From Bolinopsis microptera (Eukaryota; Ctenophora; Tentaculata; Lobata; Bolinopsidae), in assembly GCF_026151205.1 (NCBI RefSeq), contig NC_087075.1, positions 14,831,628 through 14,895,627 of the forward strand: a DNA stretch of 64,000 nt, given 5' to 3'. Of the stretch, positions 1-64,000 are shown one piece after another; the first letter of the stretch is position 1, and the number at the start of each line of letters is the position of its first letter. The translations under genes were made by a program, and so were the position numbers. The notes below the pieces were generated by a model that was given only the letters and a program-made list of their open reading frames with translations, had not been told where the DNA came from and did no database searches.

Positions 1-820
1 CCGGAAAAATGAGAATTTAATCCTTTGATTGTGGGGTTTTATCAATATAATTTAAAAGCCATGTGGACGACAATGAGAAAAGTGCTTACAGTCCGACTAA
101 CTGTGTCACGCCCTATTTCAAATTTCAACCAAACTTCTGCGCTGTGAGTCAGCAGTCCACTTGTGAATGTTGTGCGAGCAGTCAGAGGTCACATGATTGA
201 TCTGCTGTATGACAGAGCTAGAAACGAGTCGGAATAAAATCACAACCTTGCGCAAGAATTCACTCCGCCTTGCCTAGCACAAATGTACAATTGCTTTCAG
301 TATTAAAGCCCAAGATCCAGCACCAGTGCCAGCTCTTATAAGTTCGTGGCGTCAATATAACCGAGGATAATGTCCAAAGTTTTTTTATAATGGCTTGATG
401 GCCTGTGTTTTAATCCTTGACATGTAAAGGGGAGTTAGCAACGGGTTTGTTTTTACCACAATAAACAGGGACCCTCTGGCTCTGCTTGAAATGCTCTTAA
501 AGAAAAGCATAAATGGTAGCTGTTTTACTCTAACCCACTCAACAAATCTCACTTTCAACGGGTCCTTGACATTTCGCTGACAGATAACAGGCCGACCGCT
601 GAGCGTGGAATTTACCGGTCACTGAGAGCAATGACTGGATGCCCCTTAGTAAGAATTTTGACGGGAGAAATATTATACATTTTAGGAACACTAAAAAAGA
701 AATGTCTCTGTTGAATATCCGGGCCAAATTTTTGGAAACCGACCGAAACCGGAACCGGAACCGAGATGAAAGCGAATATCCGGCTGGAACCGGATTCAGC
801 GGATATCCGGTCAGTTCCTA
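1..820. mobile_element. hAT-like non-autonomous transposon, right part
   Basis: The window opens inside this element. Its right end reads GGATATCCGGTCAGTTCCTA and is followed by TGCTAGGAG, the copy of the target duplication. The left end lies before position 1. Confidence 0.7.
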
Positions 821-986
821 TGCTAGGAGGAGCTTTATTTCTACTATGGTGCCATGGAGATATTGTCTTCTTCTGGCTATTAAATATTTTACTTGTTTAC
901 TTAAAAACTTCCTTTGTGTTATTTTATCGCGTGGTTCTTTTATTCACAACTAAATAATCCCCGTTTGACCCTGAATACCCTAACAG

Positions 987-1495
987 GGCCTCCGTACACC
1001 TAATACATTGAAGACCATGTACAACAGTAAGCGATCGTACTGAGGTGTTCCCTCTGCAAACGCAGTTAGCCGCCATAGTCCTCCTCATCAACCTGGAAAA
1101 CAAGGTGTGTATTTTTTTTTTTTTTGTTAGTTTTGTACCCTGTCTGATGATGGCATATAGGTTCATTTTAGTAGATAAATTAAGGATTTACTGTGTGAGT
1201 AAGGTACACAATTCTCTACTGTAGCTACTCACTGAATAATTGTTAGAAGTTGTTAACTAATGTAACAGTGTAATCATTGTAGAATTGTAACAGTGTATAT
1301 GTAACAGTGTAAATCATTGCAATGTAACAGTGTTAATGTAACAGTGTTACAACTCCAGACAGTGCTGTTGGAGTACATTGAACTGCATGAACCATGGAGA
1401 CACCCTGCTACCAACTAAAGAAGGGTGAATGTGGTGGAGGATGTGGAGGTGGTCAGGGTTACTAAACGTGGGGGTGTATGTCTCACTTGATGACG
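987..1495 (+). CDS. PDCD11: Rrp5/PDCD11 fragment copy 0: last two exons only
   Basis: Exons A (987-1104) and H (1359-1495) of a unit whose upstream exons lie outside the window. Exon A starts after the acceptor TAACAG and reads as the second half of S1 domain 3; exon H starts after CTCCAG and runs to the GTCAGT-type donor where the minisatellite begins. Exon A carries several one-base errors but keeps the donor GTGTGT. The intron between them has a run of about 15 T near 1111, which is private to this copy. Confidence 0.75.
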
Positions 1496-2950
1496 GTCAT
1501 TAGTCTGTACTTCAGTCAGTAGTCGTAGTTTAGTCAGTAGCATGTAGTCAGTATCAGTATCTGTAGTTCAGTCAGTAGTCCTGGAGTTCAGTCAGTAAGT
1601 CTGTAAGTTTCGTCCAGTAGTCTGTAGTTCAGTCAGTAGTCCCTGTACATTCAGTCAGTAGTTCTGTACTTCAGTCAGTAGACTGTAGTTCAGTCAGTAG
1701 TCTGAGTTCATCAGTAGTCCTGTACTTCAGGTCATAGTCATGTACTTCAGTCCATAGTCTGTGAGTTTTATCAGTCAGTATCAGGTAAGTTCAGTCAGTA
1801 GTCTGTACTTCATCAGTATCTTGTAACTTCAGTCAGTAGTCCTTGTACTTCAGTCAGTAGTCTGTAGTTTCAGTCAGTAGTCTGTAGTTCAAGTCCAGTA
1901 GTCTGTACTCCAGTCAGTAGTCTGTACTTCAGTCAGTAGTCGGTAGTTCAGTCATTAGTCTTATTTCAGTCAGTATCCTGACTTCAGTCAGTAGTCCCGT
2001 ACGTCAGTCAGTAGTCTGTAGTTCAGTCAGGTAGTCCGGATATTCAGTCCAGTAGTCTGTAGATTAGTCTGTATCTGTAGTTCGTCAGTAGTCTGTACTT
2101 CATCAGTAGTCAGTACTTCAGTCTGTAGTCAGTATCTTCAGTCAGTAGCTGTACTTAGTCAGTAGTCTGTAGTTCAGGTCAGTAGTCGTACTTCAGTCAG
2201 TAGCTGTACTTCAGTCAGTAGTCTGTACTTCATCAGTAGTCTGTAGTTCAGTCAGTATCCCTGTACTTCATCTGTAGTCTGTAGTTTAGTCAGTAAAAAA
2301 GCCCATGTGATTCAGTCATAGCGTAAGTTCAGTCCGTAGTCTGTAGTTCAGGTCAGTAGATCTGTAGTTCTGTCAGTAGCGTGTAGTTCAGTCAGTAGTC
2401 TGTACTTCAGTCGTAAGTCTGTACTTCAGTCAGTATCGGTACTTCAGTCAGTAGTCTGTACTTCAGTCAGTAGTCTGTACTTCAGTCAGTAGTCTGTAGT
2501 TCATCAGTAGTCCTGTGACATCAGTCCAGTAGTCTGTAGTTTATCAGTAGCATGTAGTTTCAGTCAGTAGTCTGACATTCAGTCAGTAGTCTGTCGGTTC
2601 AGTCAGTAGTCTGTAGTTCAGTCAGTAGTCCTGTAGTTCAGTCAGTAAGTCTGTACGTCTAGTCAGATATCTGTACATCATCAGTATTCTGTATTTCAGT
2701 CAGCAGTCTGTAGTTCAGTCCGTAGTCTGTAGTTCAGTCAGTAGTCTGTACTTCAGTACTAATTAGTCCTGCCTTAGACTTCAGTCATTGTCTGTAGTTC
2801 AGTCAGTAGTCTGTACTTCAGGTCAGTAGTATGTACTTCAGTGCAGTAGTCTGTAGTTCAGTCATAGTCTGTAGTTCAGTCAGTAGTCTGGTAGTTTAGT
2901 CAGTAGTCTTTAGTTCAGTCAGTAGTCTGTACTTCAGTCCTAGTCCAGTC
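1496..2950 (+). repeat. 19-bp minisatellite, array 1
   Basis: Some 75 tandem copies of a 19-mer, TTCAGTCAGTAGTCTGTAG, with a common variant in which GTAGTT reads GTACTT. A rarer variant, GTTTAGTCAGTAGCATGTAG, marks fixed places: near 1538 and 2548 here, and a damaged one near 2285. The array starts exactly at the exon H donor and ends at TAGTCAGTC before TTTATATCAC. Nineteen is not a multiple of 3 and the unit includes TAG, so it is not coding. Confidence 0.95.
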
Positions 2951-3747
2951 TTTTATATCACTGTATTAATACTGCCAGTGTATGAAACCCTCGAGACCTC
3001 ATGCTATGGTCAATATAATGATAAGAACAAAAATGAATATGATTTAAGATCGTATAAATGCATAGGAATACGAAAGTTTTTAGTTTTGATGGATTGCACT
3101 ACCCGAGGCGAGTACTCTGCATTAACGCCTTAAAATGTATAATTACAATCACTTTAAAGATATACACACATACATAAATATAATAAACACTATTAGGGAA
3201 TGAAAAAAAGTTCTTATCTCTTACATAATTTAGAACAGTAATACAGAGTCTGAAAAGAATGTCACAGATATCTTATCAGGAAATGGCAGTGAAATTGGTT
3301 GGATGGCGTGTAGCATTGTAAAATACATCGAAGATAGTCATATTTTCGTTCTGCGAATAAAGTTTTGTGTTCGTTGCTGTACTTCCCGCAACTTTAAAAT
3401 CACACCTTTTATCACACTCCTAAACCTGGGCAACGTAGCGACTGGGAGTTGTGGGTATTCTGATTACCAAATATGTCACGTGAACATCTAAACAGTTTGT
3501 AATAGTTAAGCACGATATAAAACACCGAAATCAACTCCTGAGTATGCCTCAGATAACTCTGTGTAATTTTTGGCTCGTCGAGATCTTCTTTGATTTTCAT
3601 TCAGCATCGGTGCAATTTTTCCTTCAAATTTACACATGAGTAGAACCAATGTTGTGTCCGCAGCCAAAATTTACGCTGAAACTGGCCGAGTTTCTGAGTG
3701 TGGATATTGATTAAATACAGAATTCTTTAAAAATTGGGTATTTTCAG

Positions 3748-6700
3748 AAAGAAAAAGTAGAGCAATATTCTCGGAAAAATCCATAGCCAAAACGGTTTCC
3801 TAAAGATGATTTCTATATCTGATCTGAAACCCATTGGAAGATCTTACATACACGGTAAACGAAAACACATTTATTGTTTACTTATATAATATTACTAAGT
3901 GTATCCCGCCTACGGTCCGGGATTTCACTGCCGCAGTTAAAAAGGGTAGGAGTACTTACCCCGCTGATCAAAACCCGGATAGGGGCGAGCAATTCTATTC
4001 GGAGTGCCCTCACGTATGCAATAGTATGCTAAAAGGATAGTAAATCTTATGAATAAATCAATAGAAATTAACCCTTAACACCAGGCACCACACCAGCCTA
4101 TCATATTTGTGAACATGCAATTACATTGTCGTAATGTAATATGAACTCTCTCTTACAGTCCAAACAGACCGTTTTGAGCACTCCCTCCCTAATAAGTTTA
4201 TATAATTATATGACCATGTAATATATACCCATGTAATATATACGCTACAGATGCAGAGAGGAGCAGCCCCGTACTCTTGGCCGTTCTTCTCAAGCCAATG
4301 TATGTAACATAAAGTTTGGGTGGTACAAAACCAACAATTAAACCCACTTACCACGCGCCGATTTTTATAAAATTTGCTTATTGGCTTCGTCAGAGTTTTG
4401 TCGGCACTGAAACCGAAAAAACCTAGTCCCGTAACTATTACCGTTTTTTTGTATAAACCGTTCGAAACTACACACAGACACACCCACAGACACACACACA
4501 GACACACACACATTCTGGTGTGATTAAGTTGATAATTACACTTGCTATGACCTGACCTTTGTATCGTCTCATTGGCACAAATCCAAAATATCACTCTCTA
4601 ACAACATATTAATGTGGATATTCCTTGTTTTTTATAGAAACTGTTCCCCTGGTATGCGATGCTCGTGTTGTTCGAAGTTTGGTGAGTTGGATGTGGTAGT
4701 GAACCTGCCCAATGGATTGACGGGCTTTTATCAGAGTAATGTGAAATATGCATTTCTATGTTAAATTGTATGTGTGGCACCAAATTAAGCCTTTGAATAG
4801 ATCTAGCTAAGCAAAAATATTTTGATAACAAATTAAGTGCAAGTTAAATGCATACACGAATGAAAAATTGAAATGAAGAAACTAGATGTCAAGTAATTTA
4901 TATCAATATTGAATTTCTTGTGTTGATCCATACTAATTATTATCATAAATGCTAGTACTGATATCAGCGAGGAATTTAACAGTGTATCGAGAAACAACGC
5001 TGAAGGTGACGAGGAAGCAGAAGGTGAAGAGGTTAGTTTTCCTCTGTTGTAGATTTAAGAAGAGAATGTACTAACAGAACGTGGGCGTGAGAGTTCACCA
5101 CACTGTTCTATACTCAAACTCAGAGATTCGATACAAAATTAATCATAACAATTTCCTAAACAGCCTTCTGATTGAACATCAATTTAATAATGTAAGCCAC
5201 CTATAACATAGTATCTCTATTCTTAAAGCTCCTGTAAGTTCACTTAATTCAGGAAGCTAGAACCTCGGTGACGGATGTACAGGGGACAGTCTTATCCTGC
5301 ACCGTTTGTTGATGTAGTTACTGTTGCAAGACACGCAACTCAAGCCTCGACCACCAAAAACCGGGAGATAGTGAAGCGTTCTGTCAAGCAACAAGGATAT
5401 CAACAAGAATATGGTAGGTGATTTCATTCGATTTAAAGGACTAGTGACCACTTACCTTCTTCATAAGAATATCTTTTTAGTATGAAATTTTTCAATGTTG
5501 CTTTATAGCCGAAGGAAAAAAAAAAACCTTATTTCCGTAGGTTATCATCTTAAAAATACTTTAAATGATGGTGGCCACTATTTTAAACAAAATACTGTTT
5601 TGAGGATTATCTGATAGTTGAAGTTGTAACATTAAAAACAGTGCTACATGGAGTTCATCCAGAGTGTTGAAAGTAGGGTACATGGTGAACGGGGAGTCAA
5701 GGGGAGTAACAGCCTTCCTCAACACAGAGTGCAGTGCTCCCTGAAGAAGTGTGATATTGTCCGGGTGGTGTTCAATACGGTTACCGATGGCAACCTTTCA
5801 TTTTTTAGGTGAGGTGTGTATAAATGTGCAGGCCCGGGGGATTATTAAGATTTGTTTTTATTTCTCTCTCCAGAGTTTTGAGATTGAATATACAATAATA
5901 AGTTTACTCATACTATATCGTCTGAAATTCTGTGGCATTCTAAGAAGCAATTCCGTGAGTTATTAAAGGGTCGCGTATGGGCAGTTACTTCTTGCCACTC
6001 TGTAAATTGGTAGCTCTGGTAGTGTAGTCAGGGTCATACATTTATGACTTAAAAAATTTTAATTTAGCAGGAGATAAATTAATTAATCATCCTTAGTAAC
6101 TGTCTATTAACACAGTCTAATTAACAAAGGACTGTACGCGGTAGGGATGAAAGCACTTCGGAGAAAACATAACCACGTTCTGAACTTCTCTGACGCCCAA
6201 GGTCACCTTGTTAATATCACCGTTAATGATTCAGCTGCTAACCGGAACTGAGATGTACCTGCCTGGGGGTATCCTGGTAGGTTAACTCTTCCACTTAGGG
6301 ACTTTTGCTGGGGGTGATGCAACGTCATTAATCAGTATTCCATAAAAACCCCAACTGGACATTGACATTAATGTACATTAATTGACATAAATGACATTAA
6401 TTGACAATATTGAATAATTGACTTTAATTGACAGGTATTCGATAAATATTCAAGATAGTGCACGTCTATGTAAGTAGATCGGTTCACAAAAAACGAAAGT
6501 CTTAAATAATTATGAGTATGTTCTTAATCTGGATGATCCTTAGGTATCAAAGACCACCAAAAAAATTTCAGCTTTCCCAACTCTCCATCGTCGGTCCCAC
6601 CGGCCCACGCCCATATTTTATTGGTTTCATATACAGGTAAAATATCTAGAATCGGCTTTTTTAGTAGAAGGATTAATGTAAGCTGTTTAAAATCGTTATT

Positions 6701-8696
6701 CAAGAAATAAATGTCATGAGGCATATTCGTTTAATGTGGGTTTTTAAGTCGATGATGTTTGAGTACCACGCCTTGATGGCCAAGCCCATTTAAGAAAATT
6801 TAAATTTCGGGAAACCGTATGATTATTAGTTTTATTGTTTAATGATCGGAATTTTTTCCACATTTCACATTTCATATGTGATAGTAGTGAATAAATTGAT
6901 GATATAAACGTTCTAAAGTGCTAAAAAATGGTAGAGACTACATAATCTCTGGTCAAAAATATCATGTCAATTAATGTCAGTATTCCAAAATTTTTGCAAA
7001 ACTGACAATAATTACAGTAATTGACTTAATTGCCATAATTGACATTAATTGGACATTATTGACCGTTGCATTCCCCCGTTTTTGGCTAGAGTAGGGAACC
7101 GACCGGTCTAAGGTTTTGGCTGCCGACCAGAAAAGACCGGATATCCGGTTTGTCGCATTTTCCGTCCGGGCCGGAACCGGTAAAAAGAAGAAATATTTAA
7201 GGCTGCCGGAAAATTAATAATTTCCTGATTGTGGTTTTATCACTTATAATATTAAAAAGCCATGTGGACACAATGAGAAAGTGCTTACAGTCCGACTAAC
7301 TGTGTTCATCACACGCCCTATTTCAAATTTCAACCAAACTCTGCGGCTGTGAGCAGCAGTCACTTGTTTGATATAGTTGTGCGAGAAGTGCCAGAGGTCA
7401 CTGATTGATCTGCTGTAGTAGCAGAGCTAGAACTAGTTTGGAATAAAATCAAAACATTGCCAGAATTCACAGCGCCTTGCCTAGCACAAATGTACAAATT
7501 GCTTCAGTAGTAAAGCCCAAGATCCAGCAGCCCAGTGCAGCTCTTATAAGTTCGTGCCGTCAATATTCAACCGAGAAAATGTCCAAAGTTTTTATGGCAT
7601 GATGGCCTTGGTGTTTAATCCTTGACATAGTAAGGGGAGTTAGCATCGGGTGTTGTTACCACAATAAAGCAGGGACCCTCTGGGCTCCTGCTGTAATCTC
7701 CATAAGTCAAGCCTAAATGGTCGCTGTTTTGACTCTAACCCACTCAAAAATCTCACAATCAACGGGTCTTGGAGACATTCGCTGACTAGAATAACAGGCG
7801 ACCGTGGAGGCGTGGAATTTATACCGGTCACTGAGAGCAAATGGACTGGATGGCCGCCTTAGTAAGAATTTTGACAAAATATATACTTTTAGGAAACCCT
7901 TAAAAAAGAAATGTCCTGTTGCAATATCCGGGCCCAAATTTTTGGAAACCGGACCGAAACCGAAACCGGAACCGGAGATTAAAGCCGAATATCCGGCTGG
8001 AGACCGGATTCATCCGGAATCCGGTCCAGTTCCCTATGCTAAGGAGCTTTATTTTCAACTATGTCCAATGGAGATATTTCTTCTTCTGGTCTGATTAAAT
8101 ATATTTACCTTGTTTACTTACAAACTTACTATGTGTTATTTGTATCGCGATGATTCGTTATGCACAACTAATTAATCCCCGTTTGACCCTGAATATCCCT
8201 AACAGGCTATCCCGTACACCTAATACATATCTGAAGGACATGTACAAACAGTAAAAAGTGTACTGGAGGTGTACCCTGCTAAACGCAAGTTAGCCGCCAG
8301 AGTCTCCTCATAACCCTGCAAACAAAGGTGAGTTGTACCCTGTCTTGATATAGCTATGGTTCATTTTAGTAGAATAAATTAAGGATTTACTGTGTGATAA
8401 GGTAACACAATTTCTCTACAGTACTACTCACTAGAATATTAGGTTAGAAGTTGGTAAGCACCATTATGTAACAGTGTAAATCATTGTAATGTAACAGTGT
8501 AACTGTAACAGTGTAAATCATTGCAAATGTAACAGTGTTAATGTAACAGTGGTACAACTCTCAGACAGTGTCAGTGAGTCGTTGAACTGCCATTAACCAT
8601 GGGAGACACCCTGCTACAACTAAGAAGGGTGATGTGGTGGATATGTGGAGGTGTCAGGGTTACTAAAACGTGGTTGTAATGTCTCACTTGATGACG
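3748..8696 (+). CDS. PDCD11: Rrp5/PDCD11 fragment copy 1, eight exons
   Basis: Exons: B 3748-3854, C 4638-4736, D 4956-5031, E 5253-5413, F 5642-5808, G 6130-6276, A 8206-8327, H 8565-8696. Splice sites are recognisable throughout, but the exon C donor and the exon F acceptor have each lost a G relative to the other copies, and the acceptor of G reads AAAG. Exons A and H lie in the next period of the array, beyond the two transposons in the G-A intron. No start codon exon is present. Confidence 0.8.
4469..4512 (+). repeat. (ACACACAG)n microsatellite, unit 1
   Basis: About five units of ACACACAG/ACACACAC following TTCGAAA in the B-C intron, ending at CATTCTGGTG. Confidence 0.9.
6310..7077. 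mobile_element. Non-autonomous DNA transposon with GGGGG ends, copy 1
   Basis: The left end, in consensus over copies, is GGGGGTGATGCAACGTC, and the right end read in reverse is GGGGGAATGCAACGTC, continuing on both sides as AATTAATG: an inverted terminal repeat of about 24 bp with one small gap. It is flanked by GTTTTGCT on both sides, an 8-bp target duplication (damaged to TTTTGCT on the left in this copy). Each end is followed or preceded by a block of TTAATTGACA 10-mers (about 6350-6440 and 6990-7060), and each block is introduced by GTCAATTAATGTCAG facing CTGACATTAATTGAC, which can fold as a hairpin. About 0.55 kb of AT-rich DNA without an open frame lies between. Eight-bp duplications fit hAT, Merlin or P-type elements; the GG start is more like Merlin, but the family is uncertain. 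Confidence 0.75.
7092..8036. mobile_element. hAT-like non-autonomous transposon, first full copy
   Basis: Consensus termini are TAGGAACCGACCGG on the left and, read in reverse, TAGGAACTGACCGG on the right, flanked on both sides by TGCTAGAG, an 8-bp target duplication (slightly damaged here: GGCTAGAG left, TGCTAAGG right). TA-start inverted ends with an 8-bp duplication fit the hAT superfamily. Both subterminal regions are rich in CCGG palindromes (GACCGGATATTCCGG on the left, CCGGATATCCGG on the right) and in repeated CCGGAA steps, candidate transposase-binding sites. At about 0.94 kb with no open frame of transposase size it would depend on a transposase made elsewhere. It lies in the G-A intron, 14 bp after the end of the neighbouring GGGGG-end element. 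Confidence 0.8.
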
Positions 8697-10101
8697 TCAG
8701 TAGTCTGTACTTCAGTCAGTCTAGTCCTGTAGTTTAGTCATAGCTGAGTTCAGTCAGTAGTCTGTAGTTCCCAGTCAGTATCCTGTGTTCATCAGTAGTC
8801 TGTAGTTCATCAGTAGTCTGTAGTTCAGTCAGTTAGTCTGTACTTCACTCAGTAGTCTGTACTTCATGTTCAGTAGTCTTGTAGTTCAGTCAGTAGTCTG
8901 TAGTTCAGTTCAGTAGTCTGTACTTTCAGTCAGTAGTCTGTACTTCGTCAGTAGTCCTGTAGTTCAGTCAGTATCTGTAGTTCAGTCCGTAGTCTGTACT
9001 TCAGTCAGTATCCTGTTACTTCAGTCATAGTCAGTACTTCAGCAGTAGCTCCTGTAGTTCAGTCAGTAGTCTGTAGTTTCAGTCAGAGTCTGTACTCCAG
9101 TCAGTAGTCTGTACTTCGTCAGTAGGCTGTAGATCAGTCAGTAGTCTGTAGTTCAGTCCAGAGTCTACTTCAGTCAGTAGTCTGTGACTTCAGTCAGAAG
9201 TCTGTAGTTCAGTCAGTAGTCTTTAGTTCAAGTCAGTAGTCCTGTAGTTTAGTCATTAGTCTGTTCTGTAGGTCAGTCAGATAGTCTGTACTTTCAGTCA
9301 GTATCTGTAACTTCAGTCAGTATCTGTACTTCTGTCAGTAGTCCTGTCTTCAGTCAGTAGTCTTTAGTTCAGCAGTAGCTGTACTTCATCAGTAGTCTGA
9401 CTTCGGTCAGTAGTCTGACTTCATCAGTATCTGTAGTTCAGTCAGTAGTCTGTAGCTTCAGTCAGTAGTCCTGTAGATAGTCAGTAGCATGTAGTTCATC
9501 AGTAGTCTGTAGTTCAGTCCAGTAGCCTGTATTCATCAGTAGTCTTGTATTCAGTCAGTAAGTCTGTGTTCAGTCAGTTAGTCAGTACTTCAGTCAGTAG
9601 TCTGTACTTCAGTCGTAGTCTGTACTTCAGTCAGTATCTGTACTTCAGGTCAGATCTGTACTTCAGTCAGTATTCTGTAGTTCAGTCAGGTAGCCGTCTT
9701 CAGTCAGTAGTCTGTAGGTAGTCATACAGTAGTCAGTCAGTAGTCGTAGTTCATCAGTAGTTCTGTAGTTCAGTCCCAGAGTCAGTAGTTTCAGCAGTAG
9801 TCTGTAGTTCAGTCAAGTAGTCCTGTACTTCAGTCAGTAGTCTGTACTGCAGTCAGTAGTCTGTACTTCAGTCAGGTATTGTTTCAGTCAGTAGTCTTAG
9901 TTCAGTCAGTAGTCCTGTACTTCAGTCAGTAGTCTTACTTCAGTCAGAGTCAGTAGATCAGTCAGTATCTGACTTCAGTCAGTAGTCTGACTTCTCAGCA
10001 GTCGTAGTTCAGTCAATAGTCTGAAGTTTCAGTCAGTAGTCTGTAGTTTATCAAGTAGTCCTGTAGTTCATCAGTAGTCTGTACTTCAGTCCTAGTCAGT
10101 C
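8697..10101 (+). repeat. 19-bp minisatellite, array 2
   Basis: Same position relative to exon H as in other units. The AGCATG marker variant is clear at 9485; the first marker is degraded near 8735 and the last is not clear. Confidence 0.95.
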
Positions 10102-10890
10102 CTTGATATCACTTGTATATACTGCCGTGTATGAACCCTCGAGACCTCCTGCTATGGTAAATTATGAATGATAATGAACATAAAATGAATAGTGTATTAT
10201 AACCGTATAAATTGATAGTGAATACGAACGTTTTTAGTTATTGATGATTGCACTAACCTGCGAGCAGTACTCTGCATTAACGCCTTAAATGTTTAATTAC
10301 CATCAATTTAAAGATTACACACATACAAAATATAATAACGACTATTAGGAATGAAAATAGTTCTTATCTCTACATTAATTAGAACAGTAATACAGAGTCC
10401 TGAAAGAATGTCACAGATATCGTACAGGAAAATGGCAGTTGAAAATTGTTGGAGCGTGTAGCATTGTAACATACGTCGAAGATAGTCATATGTCGTTCTG
10501 CGATAAAAGTTTTGTGTTTTCGTTGCTGTACTTCCCGCAACTTTAATCACACCTTTATCACACTCTTACCTAAACCTGGGCAACGTAGCGACTGTGGATG
10601 TGGGTATTCTGATTACCAAATATGTCACGTGAACATCTAAACAGTTGAATTAGTTTAAGCACGAATATTAAACACCCGAAATCAACTCCTGATATGCCTC
10701 AGATAAGACTTCTTTTAATTTTGCTCGTCGATATCTGGCTGTTGATTTCATTCACCATCGGTGTATTTTCTTCAAATTTACACATGGAGTAGAACAATAT
10801 GTCCGCGCGCAAAATGTACCTGAACTGGCCGTGGTTTTCTGAGTGTGGATATTGATTAAATACAGAATTCTTTAAAAATTGTATTTTCAG

Positions 10891-20505: not shown

Positions 20506-20540
<35 letters not shown>

Positions 20541-24410: not shown

Positions 24411-24603
24411 TCTTTATATCACTTGTATTAATACTGCCGTGTATGAACTCGAACTCATGCAATGGTCAATATGATGTTATTGAACAAAAGAATATGATTT
24501 TATCGTATAAATGAAGTGAATACGAAAGTTTTAGTATTGATGATGCACTACCCCGAGGCAGTACTCCGCATTAACGCCTTAAAATGTTTTAATTACAATC
24601 ATT

Positions 24604-24606
<3 letters not shown>

Positions 24607-24637
<31 letters not shown>
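24607..24637. other. Private run of 31 G
   Basis: Inserted into AATCAATTTAAAGATATAC, which is uninterrupted in all other units. Likely artefact. Confidence 0.8.
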
Positions 24638-24638
<1 letters not shown>

Positions 24639-53060: not shown

Positions 53061-53856
53061 TCTTATATCACTTGTAATTAATACGCCGTGTATGAATCCC
53101 TCGAGACCTCATTCATGGTCAATATAATAGATAATGAACAAAAATGAATATATTATATCGTATAAATGATAGTGTAATACGAAAGTTTAGTATGATGGAT
53201 TGCACTACCCCGAGGCAGTACTCTGCATTAACGCCTTAAAATGTAAAATTACATTCCTTTATAAGCTATACACACAAACATAAATATAATAAACACTATT
53301 AGGAATGAAAATAGTTCTTATCTCTTACATTAATTTAGAACAGTAATACAGAGTCTGAAAGAATGTCCAGATATCTTAATCAGGAAAATGGCAGTGAAAT
53401 TGTTGGATGGCGTGTAGCATTGAAAAATACCTCGAAGATAGTCATATTCGTTCTGCGATAAAAGTTTTTGGTGTTTCGTTGCTGTACTTCCCGCAACTTT
53501 AATCACACCATTTATCAACACTTCCTAAACCTGGCAACGTAGCGACTGTGGTGTGGGGTATTCGATTCCAAATATGTCACGTGAACATCTAAACAGTTTG
53601 TAATTAGTTTTTAAGCACGATATAAACACCGAAATCAACTCCTGATATGCCTCAGAAGACTCTTTGTAATTTTTTGGCGTCGTCGATTAGCTGGCTGTTG
53701 TTTTCAAATTTTTTTCAGCATCGTGATTTTTCTTCAAATTTACACATGAGTAAAACGCAATTTGTCGCGGCGGCAAAATTTACCTGAACCTGGCCGTGGT
53801 TTCTGAGTGTGGCTTATTGATTAAATAAGACAGTCTTATAACAATTGTATTGTCAG
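53061..53856 (+). other. Unique-looking AT-rich stretch between minisatellite and exon B
   Basis: About 0.8 kb present in every unit (for example 2951-3747, 10102-10890, 60225-61027). No exon, RNA gene, inverted repeat or coding signal was recognised. The junction created when the unit was first duplicated must lie here or within the minisatellite, because this is where the gene order jumps from S1 domain 4 (exon H) back to the N-terminal linker (exon B). Confidence 0.6.
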
Positions 53857-53960
53857 AAAGAAAAAAGTAGAGCATATAGTCTCGGAAAAATCCATAGCCA
53901 AAATCTAAAGATGATTCTATTTCTGATCGAGGGAAAACCATTGGAAGATCTACATACAAG
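53857..53960 (+). CDS. PDCD11: Exon B: charged linker before S1 domain 1
   Basis: Consensus length 105 nt, 35 codons, phase 0 at both ends, between a TTTTCAG acceptor and a GTAAAC donor. It encodes a Lys- and Ser-rich segment (KEKVEHIF ... KKSKDDSISDLG) ending in LEDLTYK, which leads into S1 domain 1 in exon C. This matches the basic, low-complexity linker that precedes the first S1 domain in animal Rrp5/PDCD11. No Met start or FPRGG-type N-terminus is found upstream, so the true first exon is outside the unit. Equivalent positions: 3748, 10891, 18002, 25219, 32381, 39531, 46751, 61028. Confidence 0.75.
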
Positions 53961-56900
53961 GTAAACGATAAACACATTTATTGTTAATTTATAAGATTAC
54001 TAGTGTAACCCGGCCTACGTGCGGGATTTCACTGCCGCAGTTAAAAGGGTAGGAGTACTTACCCGCTTGAGTCAAAACCCGGATTAGGCGAGCAATTCTA
54101 TTCGGAGTGCCTCCGTATCCAATAGTAAATGCTTAAAAGATAGTAATTCTTAATGAATAATCAATAGAAATTAACACCGTTAACACCATGCACACACAGC
54201 CTATCATATTTGTGAACATGCATTACATTGTCGTAATGAAAGTATGATCTCCTCTCTACAGTCAAACAGACCGTTTTGAGCACTCCCTCCCCTAATAAGT
54301 TTATAGTATTTATGTGCCCATGTAATATAACGCCAATGTAATATATACGCTTACATATGCAGAGAGAGAGCTAGCCCCGGTAACTCTTGCCGTTCTTCTC
54401 AAGCCATTTTATGTAACATAATTTGTGGTACAAAACCATCAACTAAACCACTACCACGGGCCGATTTTATAAAATTTGCTTATTGCTTCGTCAGAGTGTT
54501 GTCGCACTATAACCGAAAAAACCATTCCCGAACTATTACCGTTTTTTTTTTTGTATAACCGTTCGAAATAACCACAGACACACAACACAGACACCAACAC
54601 AGACACACACACATTCTGTGTTATTAAGTTGATATACACTTCTATGACCTGACCTTTGTACGTCTCATTGGCACAAATCCAAAATAATCACTCTCTAACA
54701 ACTATTAATGTGGATATATTCTGTTTTTAGAACTGTCCCCTGGTATGCTGATGCGCGGAGTTTTTTTCTGAATGTGTGAGGTTGATGTGGGAGTGAACCT
54801 GCCCAATGGATTACGTGGCTATCAGAGGTAATGTGAATATGATTTTCTATGTTAGAATTGTATGTGTGGCAACAAATAAGCTTTTGACTTAGATCTAGCT
54901 AAGATAAAATATGTTTGAAAACAAATAAGTGCAATGTTAAATGCATACCGAAGAAAAATGAAATGAAGAAACTAGATTGTAGAAGTAATTTATATCAATA
55001 TTGAATTCTTGTGTTGAGCCATATCTAATTATATCATAGATATGATAGTACTTGATATCACGAGGAATTTAAACAGTGTTATCGAGAACAACGCTGAAGG
55101 TGACGAGGAAGCAGAAGGTTAAGAAGGTTATTTCCTCTGGTGTAAGATTGTTGAAGGAGAGAAATGTACTTGACAGAACGGTGGGCGTTAGAGTTCAAAC
55201 CACACTGTTCTATACTCAGAACTCAGAGATTCGATACTAAATTAATCATAACAATTTCCCTAACAGCCTCTTTTGAACATCAATTTATAATGTAAGCCAC
55301 CTATAACATAGTATCTCTATCTATAAGCTCCTGTACTTCCACTTAATTTCAGAACTAGACCTCTGTACGTTGTATCAGTTGGACAGTTCTATCCTGCTCG
55401 GTTTGTTGATGTAGTTACTGAGTGACAAGACACGCCACACTTCAACCTCACCACCAAACCGAGATAGTGAACGTTATCTGTCAGCACCAGGGATATCAAC
55501 AAGAATAATGTAGGTGATTTCATTCGATTTAAAGGACAAGTGACCAACCTTACTTCTTCATAAGAATAACTTTTTTAGTAGGAAATGTTTTTCAATGTTG
55601 CATTATTAGCCGAACCTTATTTCCGGTAGGTTTTTACATCTTAAAAGATACTTTTTAAATGATTGTGCCACTATTTAAACAAGAATACATTTTAGGATTA
55701 ATCTGATAGTTGAAGTTGTAACATAAAACAGGTGCAACAAGGAGTCAGCCAGAGTGTTGAAAGTACGGTACATGGTGAACGAGGGAGTCAAGGGAGTAAC
55801 AGCCTTCTCAACAAGAGGTGCAGTGCTCCTAAGAGTGTCTGATATTGTCCAGGGTGTTGGCCAATAAACGGTTAAACGATGGCAACCTTATTTTAGGTGA
55901 GGTTGTATAATTGTGCAGCCCCTGGGGATTATTAAATTTGTTTTTTATTTCTCTCCTATCCAGAGTTTGAGATTAATGAATACAATAATAAGTTTGACTT
56001 CATAATCTATAATCTCTGAAATTTCTGTGCAATTCTAAAAGAATTACGTGAGTTATTAAAGGGTCCGCGTATGGGCAGTTACTCTCTGGCCACGCTGTAT
56101 AATTGGGTAGCTCTGGCAGTTGTAGTCAGGGTCATACATTTATAATTATAATATTTTAATTTAGCAGGTATAAATTATTAATCATCTCTTATTAACTGTC
56201 TAATTAACACAGTCTAATAACACAGGACTGTACGCGGTAGGGATGAAAGCACTTTCGGAGAAAACAGTAACCCGTTCTCTTCTCTGACGCCAGTCACCAT
56301 GTACTATCACCGGTTAAGAAACAAGGCTGCTAACGGACTGAGATGTACCTTCCTTGGGGGTATACCTGTAAGGTACTCTTCCACTTAGGGACAGTTTCAT
56401 GGGGGTGATGCAACGTCAATAAGTCAGTATTCCATAAAAACCCCAAACTGACATTGACATTAATTGACATTAATGACATAATTGACATTAATTGACATTA
56501 ATTGACATTAATGGACATTAATTTGACATTAATTCGATAAATAGTCAAGATATCAACGTCCTATGTAAGTTAGATCGGTTCAAAAAAACAAAATGTCCTT
56601 TAAATAATTATGATAAGTTCTTATCTGTTGGATCCTTAGGTTCAAAGACCACCAAAAAAATTTCAAGCTTCCAACTCTTCCATCTTCGGTCCCCACCGCC
56701 ACGGCCCATATTTTATTGGTTTTTCTTATACAGGTAAATATCTCGAAATCGGGCCTTTTTTTTAGTATGAAGGAGTAATGTTAGCTGTTTTAAAATTCGT
56801 TTATTCAAAAATAAATGTCATGAAGGATTCGAGCTAGTTTTAATGTGGTTTTTAATTCTGATGATGTTTAGACACGCGCTTGATGGCCAAGCCCTTTAAG

Positions 56901-58774
56901 AAAATTAAATTTCGGAACCGATTATTTAGTTTTTATTGTTAATGATCTGAATTTTTTACACATTTCCATTTCATATGTGATAGTAGTGAATAAATTGAAT
57001 ATAAAACGTTCTAAAGTGCTAAAAATAGTAGAACTTCATTAATCTCTGGTAGTAAAATATCATGTCAATTAATGTCAGTATTCCAAAATTTTGTAACAAA
57101 ACTGACATTAAATTGACATTAATGACATTAATGACATTAATTGACAGTAATTGAAATTAATTGACGTTTGCATTCCCCCCGTTTGCTAGAGTAGGAACCG
57201 AACCGTCTAAGTTTTGGCTGCCCCCGGACCAGAAAAGACCGGATATTCCGGTTTGTCGCATTTGTTTCCGGGCCGAAACCGGGGTTAATAAGAAGAAGAT
57301 ATTTAAGGCTGCCGGAAATTGAGATTATCCTTGATTGTGGGTTTGTATCAATTAGAATATTAAAAGCCATGGTGGACACAATGAGGAAAGTGCTTACAGT
57401 CCGACTAACTGTGTTCACACGCCCTATATCAATATCAACCAAACTTCTGCGCTGTGAGCAGCAGTCACTTGTTGATATGCTTGCGAGCAGTGCAGAGGTC
57501 ACTGATTGATCTGCTGATGAGCAGAGCTAGAAACGAGTTGAATAAAAATCAAAACAATTGCAAAAGAATTCCACTGCGCCTTGCCTACACAAATGTACAA
57601 ATTGTCTTCATTAGTAAAGCCCAAAGACCACAGCCAGTGCAGCTCTTATAAGTTCGTGGCTCAATATAACCGAGGATAATGTCCCAAAGTTTTTAATGCA
57701 TGATGCCTTTGTTTTAAATCCTTACTGTAAGGGGAGTAGCAACGGTTTGTTTACCACAATAAAAGCAGGGACCCTCGGGCTCTGCTTGAAATGCTCATAA
57801 GTAAAGCATATATGGTAGCTGTTTTGACTCTAACCCCGCAAAAATCTCACATCAACAACGGGTCTTGAAACATTCGCTGACAGATAACAGGGCGACCGGG
57901 AGGCGTGGAATTACCGGTCACTGAGAGCAATGGACTGGATTGCCCCTTAGTAAGAAATTTGACAGAAATATTATAATTTTAGGAACCCTTAAAAAAGAAA
58001 TGTCCTGTTTGTAATATCCGGCCAAATATTTTGAAAGCCCGACCGAAACCGGAACCGGGAACCGGAGATTAAAGCCGAATAACCCGGCTTGGCGACCGAT
58101 TCAGCCGGATATCCGGGCAGTTCTATGCTAGAGGAGCTTTTTTCTACTATGGGTCATGAGATTATTCTTCTTCTGGCTATTAAATATATTTACTTGTTTA
58201 CTTAAAAACTTACTAGGTGTTATTTTATCGCGATGTTTCCTTTATTCACGAACTAAAGTAATCCCCGTTTGCCCCGTGAATATCTAACATGCTCCGTACA
58301 CCTAATACATCTGAAGGACATGTACAACAGTAAGAGTGTACTGGAGGTGTACCCTGCTAAACGCAAGTAGGCCCGCCAAGTCCTCCTCATTAACCCTGCA
58401 AACAAGGTGAGTTGTTACCCTGTCTTGAAGATGCTAAGGATCATTTTAGTAGATAAATTAAGGATTTACGTGATGATAGGACAGCAATTCTCTACTGTAG
58501 CTACCTCACATAGAAATATTTGTTAGATTTACAATCATAATGACACAGTGTAAATCATGTAATGTAACAGTGTAAATGTACAGTGTAAATCATTGCAAAT
58601 GTAACAGTGTTTAATGTTAACAGTGTTACAACTCTCAGACAGTGCTGTTGCGTACATTGAACTGCCATGAACCATGGAGACACCCCTGCATAACCAACTA
58701 AAGAAGGGGATGTGGTGAGGATGTGGAGGTGTCAGGGTTACTAAACGTGGGGTGTATTCTCGACTTGATGTACG
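53857..58774 (+). CDS. PDCD11: Rrp5/PDCD11 fragment copy 8, eight exons (described exon by exon below)
   Basis: Exons: B 53857-53960, C 54731-54827, D 55049-55126, E 55353-55510, F 55732-55896, G 56226-56368, A 58291-58406, H 58639-58774. Averaged over the nine copies the exons are 105, 100, 77, 156, 163, 143, 117 and 136 nt, about 332 codons, with phases that match at every internal junction. The product would be part of Rrp5/PDCD11, a nucleolar RNA-binding scaffold needed for 18S and 5.8S/25-28S rRNA processing, built from many S1 domains followed by a TPR-like C-terminal part. Only the N-terminal third of the S1 array is here. It shares the Arg variant (54755) and the TAA variant (55120) with copy 7. 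The acceptor before exon A reads AACAT. Confidence 0.82.
53961..54730 (+). other. B-C intron with microsatellite; no gene seen
   Basis: The first part contains a GC-richer block (CCCGCCTACGGCCGGG near the start, then GGGTAGGAGTAATTACCCGC) and the last part contains CTTCGTCAGAGTTTTGTCGG followed by a T-run, TTCGAAA and the CA-type microsatellite. This composition suggests an old interspersed repeat ending in a microsatellite tail, but no family could be named and no target duplication was found. The equivalent intron is present in all nine units. Confidence 0.45.
54570..54613 (+). repeat. (ACACACAG)n microsatellite, unit 8
   Basis: Three CAG steps kept, with extra C or A bases. Confidence 0.88.
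54731..54827 (+). CDS. PDCD11: Exon C: first strands of S1 domain 1
   Basis: Consensus 100 nt, phase 0 start and phase 1 end, TTTTTAG acceptor and GTAATG donor. Begins KLSPGMLMLGVV and continues to VVNLPNGLTGFI, the hallmark of the first S1 (OB-fold) domain of Rrp5: a Pro-Gly-Met turn, a Gly before the first strand and the LPNGL-GF motif. The join LTYK (exon B) to KLSPGM is as expected for the family. In three copies the codon for the Leu before GVV is CGC (Arg), including here at 54755. Confidence 0.88.
55049..55126 (+). CDS. PDCD11: Exon D: acidic insert inside S1 domain 1
   Basis: Consensus 77 nt, phase 1 start and phase 0 end. After completing the Gly codon from exon C it reads TDISEEFNSV, then an acidic tail rich in Glu and Asp (EGDEEAEGEE). 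In Rrp5 the segment after GF[V/I] begins T[E/D]I and is followed by a variable acidic or charged loop before the last strands of S1-1. This copy and the one at 47934-48009 have TAA in place of the GAA in the last codons (55120), a candidate true difference between units. Confidence 0.8.
55353..55510 (+). CDS. PDCD11: Exon E: end of S1 domain 1 and linker
   Basis: Consensus 156 nt, 52 codons, phase 0 at both ends, TTTCAG acceptor and GTAGGT donor. Reads ELDLCDVVSVGQFLSCSVV, then DKTRKLNLTTKPEIVN, which is the last strands of S1-1 (G-Q-F/L-x-C-x-V-V core and a basic K-L-x-L strand followed by P and VN), and ends QQDINKNM, the lead-in to S1 domain 2. The VN about ten residues before the next domain is a family-typical feature. 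Confidence 0.87.
55732..55896 (+). CDS. PDCD11: Exon F: S1 domain 2
   Basis: Consensus 163 nt, phase 0 start and phase 1 end, between AACAG and GTGAGG. Reads VLQGVIQSVEEYGYMVNVGV, then KGVTAFLNK and DIVRVVVNTVNDGNLIL. This is a textbook S1 fold: V-x-S-V-E-E-Y-G-Y-x-V in the first strands, G-V-x-A-F-L in the third, and a long final strand. The exon covers nearly the whole domain, and its end joins in frame to exon G. Confidence 0.9.
55897..56225 (+). other. F-G intron, nothing further recognised
   Basis: About 330 bp with a strong pyrimidine tract and AG near 55960 that would open onto GAGTTTGAGATT and stop at once. The segment with TCGCGTATGGGCAGTTACTT is well conserved between copies but shows no coding or structural signal. 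Confidence 0.6.
56226..56368 (+). CDS. PDCD11: Exon G: linker and start of S1 domain 3
   Basis: Consensus 143 nt, phase 1 start and phase 0 end. After LYAVGMKALSEKTVTTF it reads SSLTPGHLVNITVKKQ and NGLRCTFLGGIL. The donor was chosen as the GTAGG after GGTATCCTG because only this choice joins in frame to exon A and gives the family spacing FL-4 residues-G in S1-3; the earlier GTATCC would be out of frame. The preceding intron (F-G) contains an AG after a pyrimidine run near 55960, but it leads to a stop within five codons and is not used. Confidence 0.85.
56401..57180. mobile_element. GGGGG-end DNA transposon, copy 8
   Basis: Left flank damaged (ACAGTTTCAT), right flank GTTTGCT; inverted ends intact. 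Confidence 0.75.
57192..58125. mobile_element. hAT-like transposon, copy 8
   Basis: TGCTAGAG intact on both sides. From 58134 to the exon A acceptor only about 160 bp of AT-rich intron remain. Confidence 0.82.
58291..58406 (+). CDS. PDCD11: Exon A: second half of S1 domain 3
   Basis: Consensus 117 nt, 39 codons, phase 0 at both ends, CTAACAG acceptor and GTGAGT donor. Reads GSVHLIHLKDMYNSK, then AKRKLAARVLLINPENK. In Rrp5 the S1-3 domain has G-x-V-x-x-x-H-L at this point and then a final strand R-x-x-L-x-x-x-P. It is separated from exon G by about 1.9 kb that holds two transposons. Confidence 0.88.
58407..58638 (+). repeat. A-H intron with TGTAACAGTG short repeats
   Basis: The intron between exons A and H ends in about five tandem copies of a motif close to AAATGTAACAGTGT, partly spaced by AAATCATTG (58541-58629 here). 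Equivalents are at about 1259, 8465, 15561, 22729, 29893, 37060, 44252 and 51413. The array ends just upstream of the exon H acceptor. Confidence 0.75.
58639..58774 (+). CDS. PDCD11: Exon H: end of S1-3 and start of S1 domain 4
   Basis: Consensus 136 nt, phase 0 start and phase 1 end, CTCTCAG acceptor. Reads TVLLSTLNCH, YQLKKGDVVEDVEVVRV and TKRGVYVSLDD, that is the last strand of S1-3, a linker and the first strands of the degenerate S1-4. The proposed donor is GTCAGT, immediately where the 19-bp minisatellite starts; reading through instead gives Gly-Gln-stop. The next exon of the gene, which should start in phase 1, was not found before exon B of the following unit. Confidence 0.78.
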
Positions 58775-60224
58775 GTCAGTAGTCCTGTCTACTTCTAGTC
58801 AGTAGTCCCTAGTTTAGTCAGTAGCATTAGTTCAGTCAGTAGTCTGTAGTTCAGTCATAGTCTGTAGTTGTCAGTCAGTAGTCTGTTATTTCGTCCATAG
58901 TCTGTAGTTCAGTCAGTAGTCTGTACTTCAGTCAGTAGTCTGTTACATCAGTCATAGGTCTAGTAGTTCAGTCAGTAGTCTGTAGTCAGTCATAGTCGAC
59001 ATCAGTCAGTAGTCTGTACTTCTGTCAGTAGTCTGTAGTTCAGTCAGTAGTCCTGTAGTTCAGGTCAGTTAGTCGTACTTCAGTCAGTAGTCTGTACATT
59101 CAGATCAAGTAGTCGTGTACTTCAGTCAGTAGTCTGTAGTTCAGTCAGTATCTGTAGTTCAGTCAGTAAGTCCTGTACTCCAGTCAGTAGTCTGTACTTC
59201 AGTCAGTAGTCGTAGTTCAGATCAGTAGTCTGGTAGTTCAGTCAGTAGTCTGTACTTCAGTCGGTATCTGTACTTCAGTCAGTAGTCTGTAGTTTCAGTC
59301 AGTAAGTCTGTAGTTCACAGTAGTCTGTATTTCTGTCAGTAGGTCTGTAGTTCAGTCAGTAGTCTGTACTTCAGTCAGTAGTCTGTACTTCAGCAGTAGT
59401 CTGTACTTCAGTCAGTTAGTCTGTACTTTAGCAGTCGTAGTCTGAGTTCAGTCAGTAGTCTGGTACTTCATCAGTAGTCTGAACTTCAGACAGTAGTCTG
59501 GTACTTCAGTCCAGTAGTCTGTAGTTCAGTCAGTAAGTCTGTACTTTACATCAGTATTCTGTAGTTTAGTCAGGTAGCATGTAGTTCAGTCAGTAGTCTG
59601 TAGTTCAGTCATAGTCTGTAGTTTTCATCAGTAGTCTGTAGTTCAGTCAGTAGTCTGTAGTTTCAGTCAGTAGTCTGTACTTCAGACAGTAGGCTGTACG
59701 CTTCAGTCAGTAGTCTGTACTTTCAGTCAGTAGTCTTTACTTCACAGTCAGTAGACTGTACTTCAGCAGTAGTTCTGTAGTTCAGTCAGTATTCTGTACT
59801 TCAGTCAGTAGTCTGTAGTTTAGTCAGTAGCAATTATGTCATTCTAGTAGTCGTGTAGTTCAGTCTAGTAGTCTGTAGTTCAGTCAGTAGTCTGTAGTTT
59901 CAGTCAGTAGTCTTAGTCAGTCATTAGTCTGTTACATCAGTCATAGTCTGTACTTTCAGTCAGTATCTTGTACTTCAGTCAGTAGTCTGTAGTGCAGTCA
60001 GTAGTCTGTATTCAGTCAGTAGTCCTGTACTTCATCAGTAGTCTGTACTTCAGTTCAGTAGTCTGTAGTTTCAGTCAGTAGTCTTACTTCAGTCAGTAGT
60101 CCTGTACTTCAGTTATAGTATCCTGTCTTCAGTCAGTAGTCTGTAAGTTCATTCCAGTAGTCATTAGTTTTAGTCAGGTAGTCCTGTAGTTCAGTCAGTA
60201 GTCTGTAATTCAGTCTAGTCAGTC
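58775..60224 (+). repeat. 19-bp minisatellite, array 9
   Basis: Marker variants near 58823, 59577 and 59829 (the last damaged by an insertion). Confidence 0.95.
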
Positions 60225-61027
60225 TTTAATCACTTGTATTAATACTGCCGTGTTAGTGAACCCGAGACCCATGCTAGGGTCAATATGAATGATAATGAAC
60301 AAAAATGAATATGATTATATCGATAAAATGATAGTGAATAAAAAGTTTTTAGTTTATTGATGGATTGCACTAAAGACCCCCGAGGCAGTTACTCTGCATT
60401 AACGCCTAAAATGTTTAATTACAATCAATTTAAAGATATAAACACATACATAAATAGTAATAACGACATTAAGGGAATGAAAATAGTCATTATCTCTTAC
60501 ATTAATTTAGAACAGTACTAACCGAGTCTGAAAAGAATGTCACAAGATATCTTATCAGGAAAATGGCAGTGAAATTGTTTGATGGAGTGTAGCATTGTAA
60601 ATACCTCAAGATAAGTCATATTTCGTTCTGCGATTAAAAGTTTTGTGTTCGTTGCTGTACTTCCGCAACTTTAATCACAAACCGTTTATCCCACTTCCTA
60701 AACCTGGGCAACGTAATCGACTGTGGAGGTGTTGGTATTCTGATTACCAAATATGTCACGTGAACATCTAAAACAGGTTTGTAATTAGTTTAAGCACGAT
60801 ATTCAACACACCGAAATCATCTCCTTATATGCCTCAGATCAACTCTTTTGTAATTTTTGGCCTCGTCGATATCGGGCTGTTGATTTTCATTCAGCATCGT
60901 GTATTTTCTCAAAATTAACAACATGATAAACCAATTTGTCCGCGCCCAAAATTTACCTTAAACTGGGCCGTGGTTTCTGAGTGTGGATATATTGATAATA
61001 CAGAATTTCTTTAAAATTGTATTTCAG

Positions 61028-63551
61028 AAAGAAAAAGTAGAGCATATATTTCTCGGAAAAATCCATAGCCAAAAAAGTCTAAAGATGATTTCTATATCTG
61101 ATCTGGGAAAACATTGGAGATCTTACATACAAGGTAAACGATAAACCACATTTATTGTTAATTAATATAATATACTGAGTGTAACCCGCCTAACGTCCGG
61201 ATTTCACTGCCGCAGTTAAAGGGTAGGAGTAATTACCCGCTGAGTCAAACCGCGGATTAGGCGAGCAATTCTATTCGGAGTGCCCTCACGTATCCAATAT
61301 AGCTTAAAAGAAGTAATTCTTAATGAATAATCAATAGAAATTAAACCCTTAACACCATGGCAACCACAAACCAGCCTATCAAAGTTGTGAAACATGCATT
61401 ACATTGTCGTAGAAAGTAGGAACTCTCTCTACAGTCCAAACAGACCGTTTGAGCACTCACCTCCCCTTATAAGTTTATAGTAGCATATGACCATAGTAAT
61501 AATTGCATGTAATAATATACGCTAACATATCAAGAGAGAGCTAGCCCGTAACTCTTGCCGTTTCTTCGCAAAGCCATTTTATGTAACATATTTTTGGTAC
61601 AAAAACCATCAATTAAACCACTTCCCACCGGCCGAATTTTTTATAAATTTGCTTTATTGGCTTCGTCAATTTTGTCGCACTATACCGAAAAAACCAGTCC
61701 CCGTAACTATTACCGTTTTTTTTGTATGGGGGGGGGGTGGGAACCGTTCGAAAATACACACAGACACACACACAGACTCACACCCAGACAACAGCACACA
61801 ATCTGGTGTTATTAAGTTGAATAATACACTTGCAATGACCCTGACCTTTGATCGTCTAATTGCACAAATCCAATATCACTCCTCTAACAACATATAATGT
61901 GATTATTCCAGTTTTTAGAAACTGTCCCTGGTATGCTGATGCTCGGTTGTTGTTTCTGAAGTGGGTGTAGGTTGATGTGGAGTGAACCTCCCAATTGGGA
62001 TTGACTGCTTTTATCAGAGCAATGTGAATATGCTTTTCGATGTTAAATTGGAAGTGTGGCACAAAATAAGCTTTGATTAGGACTAGTTAAGATAAAATAT
62101 TTTGATAACAAATTAAGTGCAATGTTAAATGCATACCGAATGAAAAATGAAATGACGAAACTAGATGTAGAAAGTAATTTATATCAATAGTTGAATTCTT
62201 GTGTTGAGCCCTATCTAAATTATTATCATAATATGCTAGGTACTGATATCAGCGAGGAATTTTAACATGTATCGAGAACACAACGCTGAGGTGACGGAGA
62301 AGCAAAGTGAAGCGGTTTAGTTTTTTCCTCTGTTGTAGATTGAAGAAGAGAAATGTACTTACAGAACGGTGGGCCGTGAGAGTTCACACAACTGTTCTAT
62401 ACTCAAACTCAGAGATTCGATACAACTTAATAATAACAATTTCCTAACAGCCTTCATTTGAACTCAATTTTAATTGTAAGCACCTATAACATAGTAAGCT
62501 CTATCTTTTAAGCTGCCTGTAAAGTTCCACTTAATTTCAGAGAACTAGACCTCTGTGACTTTGTATCAGTGGACAGTTTCTTATCCAGCTCGGTTGTTGA
62601 ATGAGTACTGTTGACAAGACACGCAAACTCAAGCTCTCACCACCAAACCGGATATAGTGAACGGTGTTCTGTCAATTCTACAGGATATCAACAAGAATAT
62701 GGTAGGTGATTTTCATTCGATTTAAAGACTAGTGACCACCATTACCTCTCATACAGAATATCTTTTTAGTATGAAATGTTTCAATGTGCTTTATTACCGA
62801 ACTTATTTCCGTAGGTTTTCATCATAAAAAATACTTTAAATGATTGTGCCACTATTTTTAAACAAAAATACAGTTTTAAGGATTATCTGATAGTTTGATG
62901 TTGTAACATTAAAAACAGGTGCCACAAGGAGTCATCCAGAGTGTTGAAAGAGTACGGTACATGGTGAAAGCGTGGGAGTCAAGGAGTAAACGCCTCCTCA
63001 TCAAGAGTGCAGTGCCTCCTGAAGAAGTGTGATATTGTCCGGGTGGTGGTCATACGGTTAACGAGGCAACCTTATTTTTAGGTGAGGTGGGTTATAAATT
63101 GTGCAGCCACGGGATTTTTAATGGTTTTTATTCTCTCATCCAGAGTTTTTGAGATTGAATAATACAATAATAAGTTTGCTCATAGCATAATCTCTGAAAA
63201 TCTTCTGTGCAATTCTAAGAAGAATTACGTGAGTTATTAAAGGTCGCGTATGGCAGTTACTTCTGGGCCACTCTGTATAATTGGGTAGCTCTGCAGTGTA
63301 GTCAGGGTCATACATTATAATTAAAAATATATTTAATTTAGCAGGGAGATAAATTATTAATCATCTCTTATTAACTGTCTAATTAACACAGTCTAATTAA
63401 AACACAGGACTGTACGCCGGTAGGGATGAAACACTTTCGGGAAACAGTAACCACGTACTCTTATTCCTCTGGACGCCAGGTCCACCTGTTAATATCCACC
63501 GATTAAGAAACAGGCTGCTAACGACTGAGATACCTTCCTTGGGGTATCCTG
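61028..63551 (+). CDS. PDCD11: Rrp5/PDCD11 fragment copy 9, cut by window end
   Basis: Exons: B 61028-61133, C 61919-62019, D 62240-62314, E 62541-62701, F 62919-63081, G 63408-63551; A and H would lie beyond 64000. Exon C has the Leu (CTC) form. The donor of C reads GCAATG for GTAATG, a single substitution or read error. Confidence 0.8.
61754..61800 (+). repeat. (ACACACAG)n microsatellite, unit 9
   Basis: Preceded by a private G block (61728-61740) inserted between TTTGTAT and AACCGTTCG. Confidence 0.88.
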
Positions 63552-63586
63552 GTAGGGTACTCTTCCACTTAGGGACTGTTTTGGCT

Positions 63587-64000
63587 GGGGTGATGCAACG
63601 ACAATTAAGTCAGTATTCCATAAAAACCCCAAACTGACATTGACATTAATTGACATTAATTGACATTAAATTGACATTAATTGACATTAAATGACATTAA
63701 TTGACATTAATTGACATAATTCGATAAATTATTTCAAGATATTCACGTCTATGGTAAAGTTAGATCGGTTCAAAAAAACAAATATGTCCTTAAAAATTTA
63801 TATTATTTCTTATCTGTTGATCCTTAGTGTTTCAAAGACCAACCAAAAAAATTTTTCAGCTCCAACTCCTTCCATCTTCGGTCCCCACCCCCACCGCACC
63901 ATAGTTTATTGGTTTCTTATACAGGTAAAATATCTAGGAATCGGCTTTTTTTAGTAGAAGGAGTAAAGGTTAGCTGTTTTAAAATTCGTTATTACAAAAA
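63587..64000. mobile_element. GGGGG-end DNA transposon, copy 9, cut by window end
   Basis: Left end with GGGGTGATGCAACG after ACTGTTTTGGCT, then about nine TTAATTGACA steps; the right end is outside the window. Confidence 0.7.

Follow-up and report, generated by a model that had tools for sequence, protein, structure and literature searches.

Head-to-tail Rrp5/PDCD11 fragments in a Bolinopsis microptera assembly: very probably uncorrected read sequence placed on several contigs

The DNA considered here (the window) is a stretch of 64,000 nucleotides from the ctenophore Bolinopsis microptera, corresponding to C4:14831628-14895627 in an assembly of 264.65 Mb and 232 contigs. It is filled by head-to-tail copies of a single repeat unit, all on the + strand, of which eight are complete and two are partial, with a spacing of 7,113-7,210 bp. 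The repeat in these letters is not due to chance, and the head-to-tail repetition of an Rrp5/PDCD11 fragment that had originally been predicted for this stretch is borne out. The units are laid out as follows:

1-3419, + strand: partial unit, right part, with Rrp5 exons 8 and 9
3420-10567, + strand: complete unit 1; the stretch 3400-7600 is 100% identical to reversed C11 at 14.31 Mb
10568-17681, + strand: complete unit 2
17682-24896, + strand: complete unit 3; the stretch 19474-25098 is 100% identical to reversed C11 at 14.29 Mb
24897-32042, + strand: complete unit 4
32043-39204, + strand: complete unit 5
39205-46410, + strand: complete unit 6
46411-53524, + strand: complete unit 7
53525-60697, + strand: complete unit 8
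60698-64000, + strand: partial unit, left part, with Rrp5 exons 2 to 7; the array continues past the window to C4:14942123

The first window unit is only 82-85% identical to the other window units. Two long runs of G, one of 34 (window 20506-20539) and one of 31 (24607-24637), each occur in a single unit and have the look of a read artefact.

Placed on the native copy of the gene, the unit contains eight exons of 105, 100, 77, 156, 166, 143, 117, and 136 bp with AG/GT borders. Spliced together with the next exon, these match Rrp5 in the PDB entries 6rxy (E 1.3e-28) and 5wlc (E 4.7e-25), as well as the Pfam families S1_RRP5 and OB_RRP5_4th, which confirms the gene name given in the original prediction; its further claim that the repeated segment is a gene fragment also holds, the unit consisting of exons 2-9 only, with neither exon 1 nor anything after exon 9. 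The unit thus resembles Rrp5/PDCD11 in that its exons encode the first S1 domains, and the native locus carries on with further S1 exons, but it differs in that each repeat is incomplete and splicing from unit to unit is out of frame: a splice that runs from exon 9 into exon 2 of the following unit shifts the frame and then meets a stop. An in-frame amplification of S1 modules was rejected on account of this frame shift. A literature search pairing PDCD11 with "tandem duplication" found nothing that combined the two.

A clean version of the unit, 7,111 bp (~7.1 kb) in length, is present at C11:3063170-3070283, where it occurs once within the surrounding 20 kb and is bordered by non-repeat DNA on both sides, its right end falling 4 bases before exon 10 of Rrp5. 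The identity of this copy is 97.8% to a rough consensus drawn from the window units and 90-92% to the units themselves. When 1.2 kb of the window were searched against the genome, 40 of 604 candidate matches were scored, and one of these, on C11 at 3.06 Mb, was a copy at 90%; apart from the query and an identical twin on C11, the remaining matches among those 40 were at 82-86%, and the counts from this search stand for at least that many. The Pfam S1_RRP5 profile gave one match at E <=0.001 (C11:3070977-3071111), a count that does not inform copy number. The junction between array units joins the two ends of the native segment, which have the three bases CTA in common, and the same junction recurs in the copies; such a head-to-tail joining of both ends of one genomic segment is what a circle would display, and it is equally true of a tandem array. 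A mobile element inserted in an Rrp5 exon was considered as the nature of the unit and rejected: the joined native flanks do give an open frame, yet this is probably a coincidence, because the exon borders put both unit ends outside the assigned exons. Intron 9 of native Rrp5 also carries a 19-bp minisatellite (C11, L005:3251-4900) that is nearly perfect, with 228-243 of 243 possible 7-mers in each inner 250-bp bin, compared with ~105-170 of 243 in the inner 250-bp bins of the array minisatellite. The minisatellite amounts to ~74 copies in each complete window unit.

Across the eight complete window units, the mean divergence from the native unit is 2.0% in substitutions, 4.0% in insertions, and 3.3% in deletions. 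Substitutions found in one, two, and three of the eight units numbered 988, 65, and 3, where ~995, 72, and 3 are expected under independence, while deletions common to two units (225 vs 176 expected) and to three units (77 vs 12) were in excess. Among 19 complete units (the eight of the window and 11 from contig C5), substitutions common to two and to three units likewise exceeded expectation (216 vs 135 and 18 vs 5, respectively); these excesses, in deletions among the eight units and in substitutions among the 19, are tentatively attributed to base- and context-dependent error. Exons are affected much as the rest of the unit is, with substitutions at 2.1% in exons and 2.0% outside, and deletions at 3.7% and 3.2%. 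In the orientation of Rrp5, all 14 pieces longer than 3 kb (on C4, C11, C5, C1, and C3, some of which share text) show deletion rates of 5.6-6.9% for G and 1.1-2.2% for C, a roughly fourfold difference, and such a bias fits raw reads taken from one strand. The differences from the clean copy are therefore indel-rich, private, strand-biased, and blind to exons, and, judged from the letters, they are raw read errors and not mutations, because the substitutions are private as chance predicts, are equally dense in exons, and are accompanied by deletions with a strand bias. At C5:11546391-11547216, ~10 kb away from the main noisy stretch of that contig, an isolated noisy piece of the unit (826 bp, 85-88% identity), which is filler from another read, has the opposite bias, with C deleted at 8.1% and G at 2.5%; the unit text of the assembly therefore does not stem from one strand throughout.

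The noisy text of the window is not confined to it. The two stretches marked in the feature list above, of 4,201 and 5,625 bp, have letter-identical counterparts on C11, and comparable text is found in five long stretches of the assembly, which total ~302 kb:

C4, 14824569-14942123: filler stretch that includes the window
C11, 14292376-14337167: filler stretch
C5, about 11556893-11639825: filler stretch
C1, 4985812-5019402: filler stretch
C3, 1050678-1074029: filler stretch

Both ends of the C1 stretch (7,189 and 6,402 bp) and both ends of the C3 stretch (6,323 and 4,029 bp) are 100% identical to text in the C5 stretch. The comparison by letters covered parts of the C11, C1, and C3 stretches, and the remaining interiors were paired by identical match scores, with the junction matches of C4 pairing with those of C11, and those of C5 with those of C3 and C1; noisy text thus recurs at more than one place, both by letters and by paired scores. 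Random errors cannot arise twice in the same form on different contigs, and each such set can therefore have no more than one member in its proper place. These observations also dispose of the view that the arrays are old and real chromosomal duplications on C4, C11, C5, C1, and C3 that have decayed by mutation, which we consider extremely improbable even though the assembly displays arrays on all five contigs: the copies are ~9% from the clean copy, their substitutions are private, indels outnumber substitutions, the deletions are strand-biased, and the exons are unprotected, while stretches on different contigs are 100% identical. A decayed ancient array was accordingly rejected on its error spectrum and its 100% shared text, and the reading fails because mutation cannot give both private divergence and 100% identity across contigs.

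The borders of these stretches were examined in the same light. Eight placed edges fall at eight different and unrelated phases of the unit, and beyond the edges of the placed stretches we found no further matches to the unit. The native Rrp5 flanks were sought at the edges at ten loci, nine of them with flank, and gave no match. The flanking DNA looks clean, as in the regular 18-bp repeat that lies beside the C4 stretch. Several edges lie in or adjoin the 19-bp minisatellite, which may have anchored the read at wrong places. The flanks on C4 and C11 were translated, and from these comes a BCCT transporter gene on C11, an exon of which lies 23 bases from the start of the C11 stretch, the filler there adjoining the 3' half of the gene. 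Parts of this gene corresponding to profile positions 20-269 (14422436-14423708) and 295-462 (14290338-14292352) are on the same strand and 130 kb apart, whereas at six other places in the genome the BCCT parts are 0.3-1.4 kb apart. The gene thus appears to be split across the place of the C11 filler. Only 45 kb of the 130 kb are filler, and the first 3.8 kb of the rest were viewed; the separation may also stem from another misjoin, from two distinct partial genes, or from a long intron.

Taken together, these features make it very probable that the window is uncorrected single-molecule read sequence pasted into C4 by the assembly process and not a chromosomal array at that place, because there is one clean copy, the errors are private and read-like, the noisy text is reused letter for letter, and the edges fall at unrelated phases. 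The tandem amplification put forward in the original prediction therefore stands as to the gene and the head-to-tail order of its copies but not as a chromosomal feature here, the window being uncorrected read text that is partly reused on C11; the alternatives that the prediction itself had listed, namely a segmental array, a circle or rolling-circle product, and an assembly concatemer, were well chosen. The text shared with C11 likewise speaks against an accurate passage from the C4 flanks into an array.

As for how such text could enter a finished assembly, a long-read gap closer (TGS-Gapcloser) may have placed slices of a read into several gaps, and short-read polishing would then have failed on the filler, presumably because ~9% errors together with the repetition stopped the reads from mapping. 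The available part of the published B. microptera methods describes PacBio CLR reads, wtdbg, HiRise, TGS-Gapcloser, and pilon (PMC10232365), a sequence of steps that fits this reading; a published B. microptera assembly is described as having 265 Mb, 13 chromosomes, and 346 scaffolds, and the last figure counts against the match, as the assembly used here has 232 contigs. Proteins place the genome among the ctenophores as well: for the ligand-binding part of one of its glutamate receptors the best PDB match is ML032222a, a Mnemiopsis leidyi protein, and a 117-residue part of ML032222a has its best match in the genome at 80% identity, which makes M. leidyi itself an improbable source. TGS-GapCloser is described as using long-read segments aligned to both gap flanks and as applying error correction by default (PMC7476103). 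This correction step may be omitted. Both default correction and two-sided alignment count against a filler whose clean flanks lack similarity to the native flanks. In a benchmark, the same program filled gaps from real Drosophila PacBio reads at 95.16% mean identity, or 38.98% when weighted by gap size (PMC8848313). The window resembles the errors of this class of gap-closing programs (TGS-GapCloser, PBJelly, LR_Gapcloser) in that read segments with read-level error stand between contigs, but it differs in that the filler is here a long tandem read whose text is used in five places, and in that the program is inferred. Read text of this extent on five contigs of a chromosome-level assembly, next to an apparently split transporter gene, mimics a dispersed gene amplification, and users of the assembly should mask the filler before counting genes or repeats. 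The signature seen here also serves as a cheap general test for such fills: errors that are private to a copy, deletions biased by strand, noisy text that recurs unchanged on several contigs, and one clean donor.

A different matter is the molecule from which the read was taken. The C4 stretch and the part of C11 that extends it would together make ~130 kb of continuous array text, or >18 units, and C5 adds 83 kb, with no stretch of >97% identity and 300 bp in common with the window text. Two independent source molecules cannot be claimed from this, the window and C5 text agreeing in strand, error rates, and variants, and the two may be slices of one read. Four substitutions relative to the native copy are present in 10, 13, 15, and 16 of the 19 complete units, and a 3-bp in-frame deletion in exon 6 is present in 10 to 15 of them, depending on the base; beyond the four array-wide ones, no substitution is common to more than 4 of the 19. 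We read all 19 units as fitting one variant set, and thus one clone, and the shortfall as read or alignment error.

With a slight leaning in its favor, we suggest that the source read came from a 7.1 kb Rrp5 circle closed at CTA and read round repeatedly, the circle being either natural or made in the tube, because the long pieces are one-stranded and the units are clonal. Such a circular DNA would have been cut from the Rrp5 gene and closed at the 3-bp CTA microhomology, a strand-displacing sequencing polymerase would have read it again and again to give one-strand head-to-tail text, and slices of this circle-derived text would then have been put in several gaps; direct PacBio sequencing of plasmids without a library has been reported (Coupland 2012, as described in a passage that cites it). 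We find it rather doubtful that the animal itself carries a tandem array of the fragment, one that the assembler collapsed and whose reads were misused as filler; its most likely site would be the native Rrp5 locus of one haplotype. Such an array would account for the length of the continuous text across C4 and C11, for the C5 text without overlap with the window, and for the shared variants of the units that are absent from the assembled native copy, a pattern to be expected of another haplotype. Against it, no substitution other than the four array-wide ones occurs in more than 4 of the 19 units, which makes the units clonal, and all long pieces are on one strand, an outcome with a probability of one half should just two molecules lie behind them. 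At the variant sites, moreover, the polished native copy on C11 retains its own bases; had there been a large array, we infer that its short reads should have replaced them. Finally, the unit-to-unit splice is out of frame, and no filler edge runs into the native flanks.

The circle or concatemer could also have arisen in the tube, through a fragment that ligated to itself or through rolling-circle amplification in the course of preparation. This account, which shares ground with the circle reading, would likewise give one strand only, clonal units, and a closure with only 3 bp in common; it is unlikely, and the part of the B. microptera methods at hand mentions no amplification step (PMC10232365). 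We hold it as a tentative possibility that a genuine amplification of a clonal 7.1 kb Rrp5 piece took place in the animal, whether as an abundant circle or as a recent array of >18 identical units, with its join formed at 3 bp of microhomology, and that one or two very long reads captured it. The likeness to extrachromosomal circular DNA lies in the one-strand, head-to-tail, clonal units and the short closure microhomology; the difference is that the present case is known from assembly letters alone, in which a recent linear array in the chromosome or an in vitro circle would look alike. The read behind the filler is also a pointer to possible circular or amplified DNA in a ctenophore. The array-specific substitutions and the 3-bp deletion cluster at unit positions 2035-2731, that is, in 0.7 of the 7.1 kb (native copy at C11:3.065 Mb), and this cluster perhaps marks a haplotype switch in the assembled native copy.
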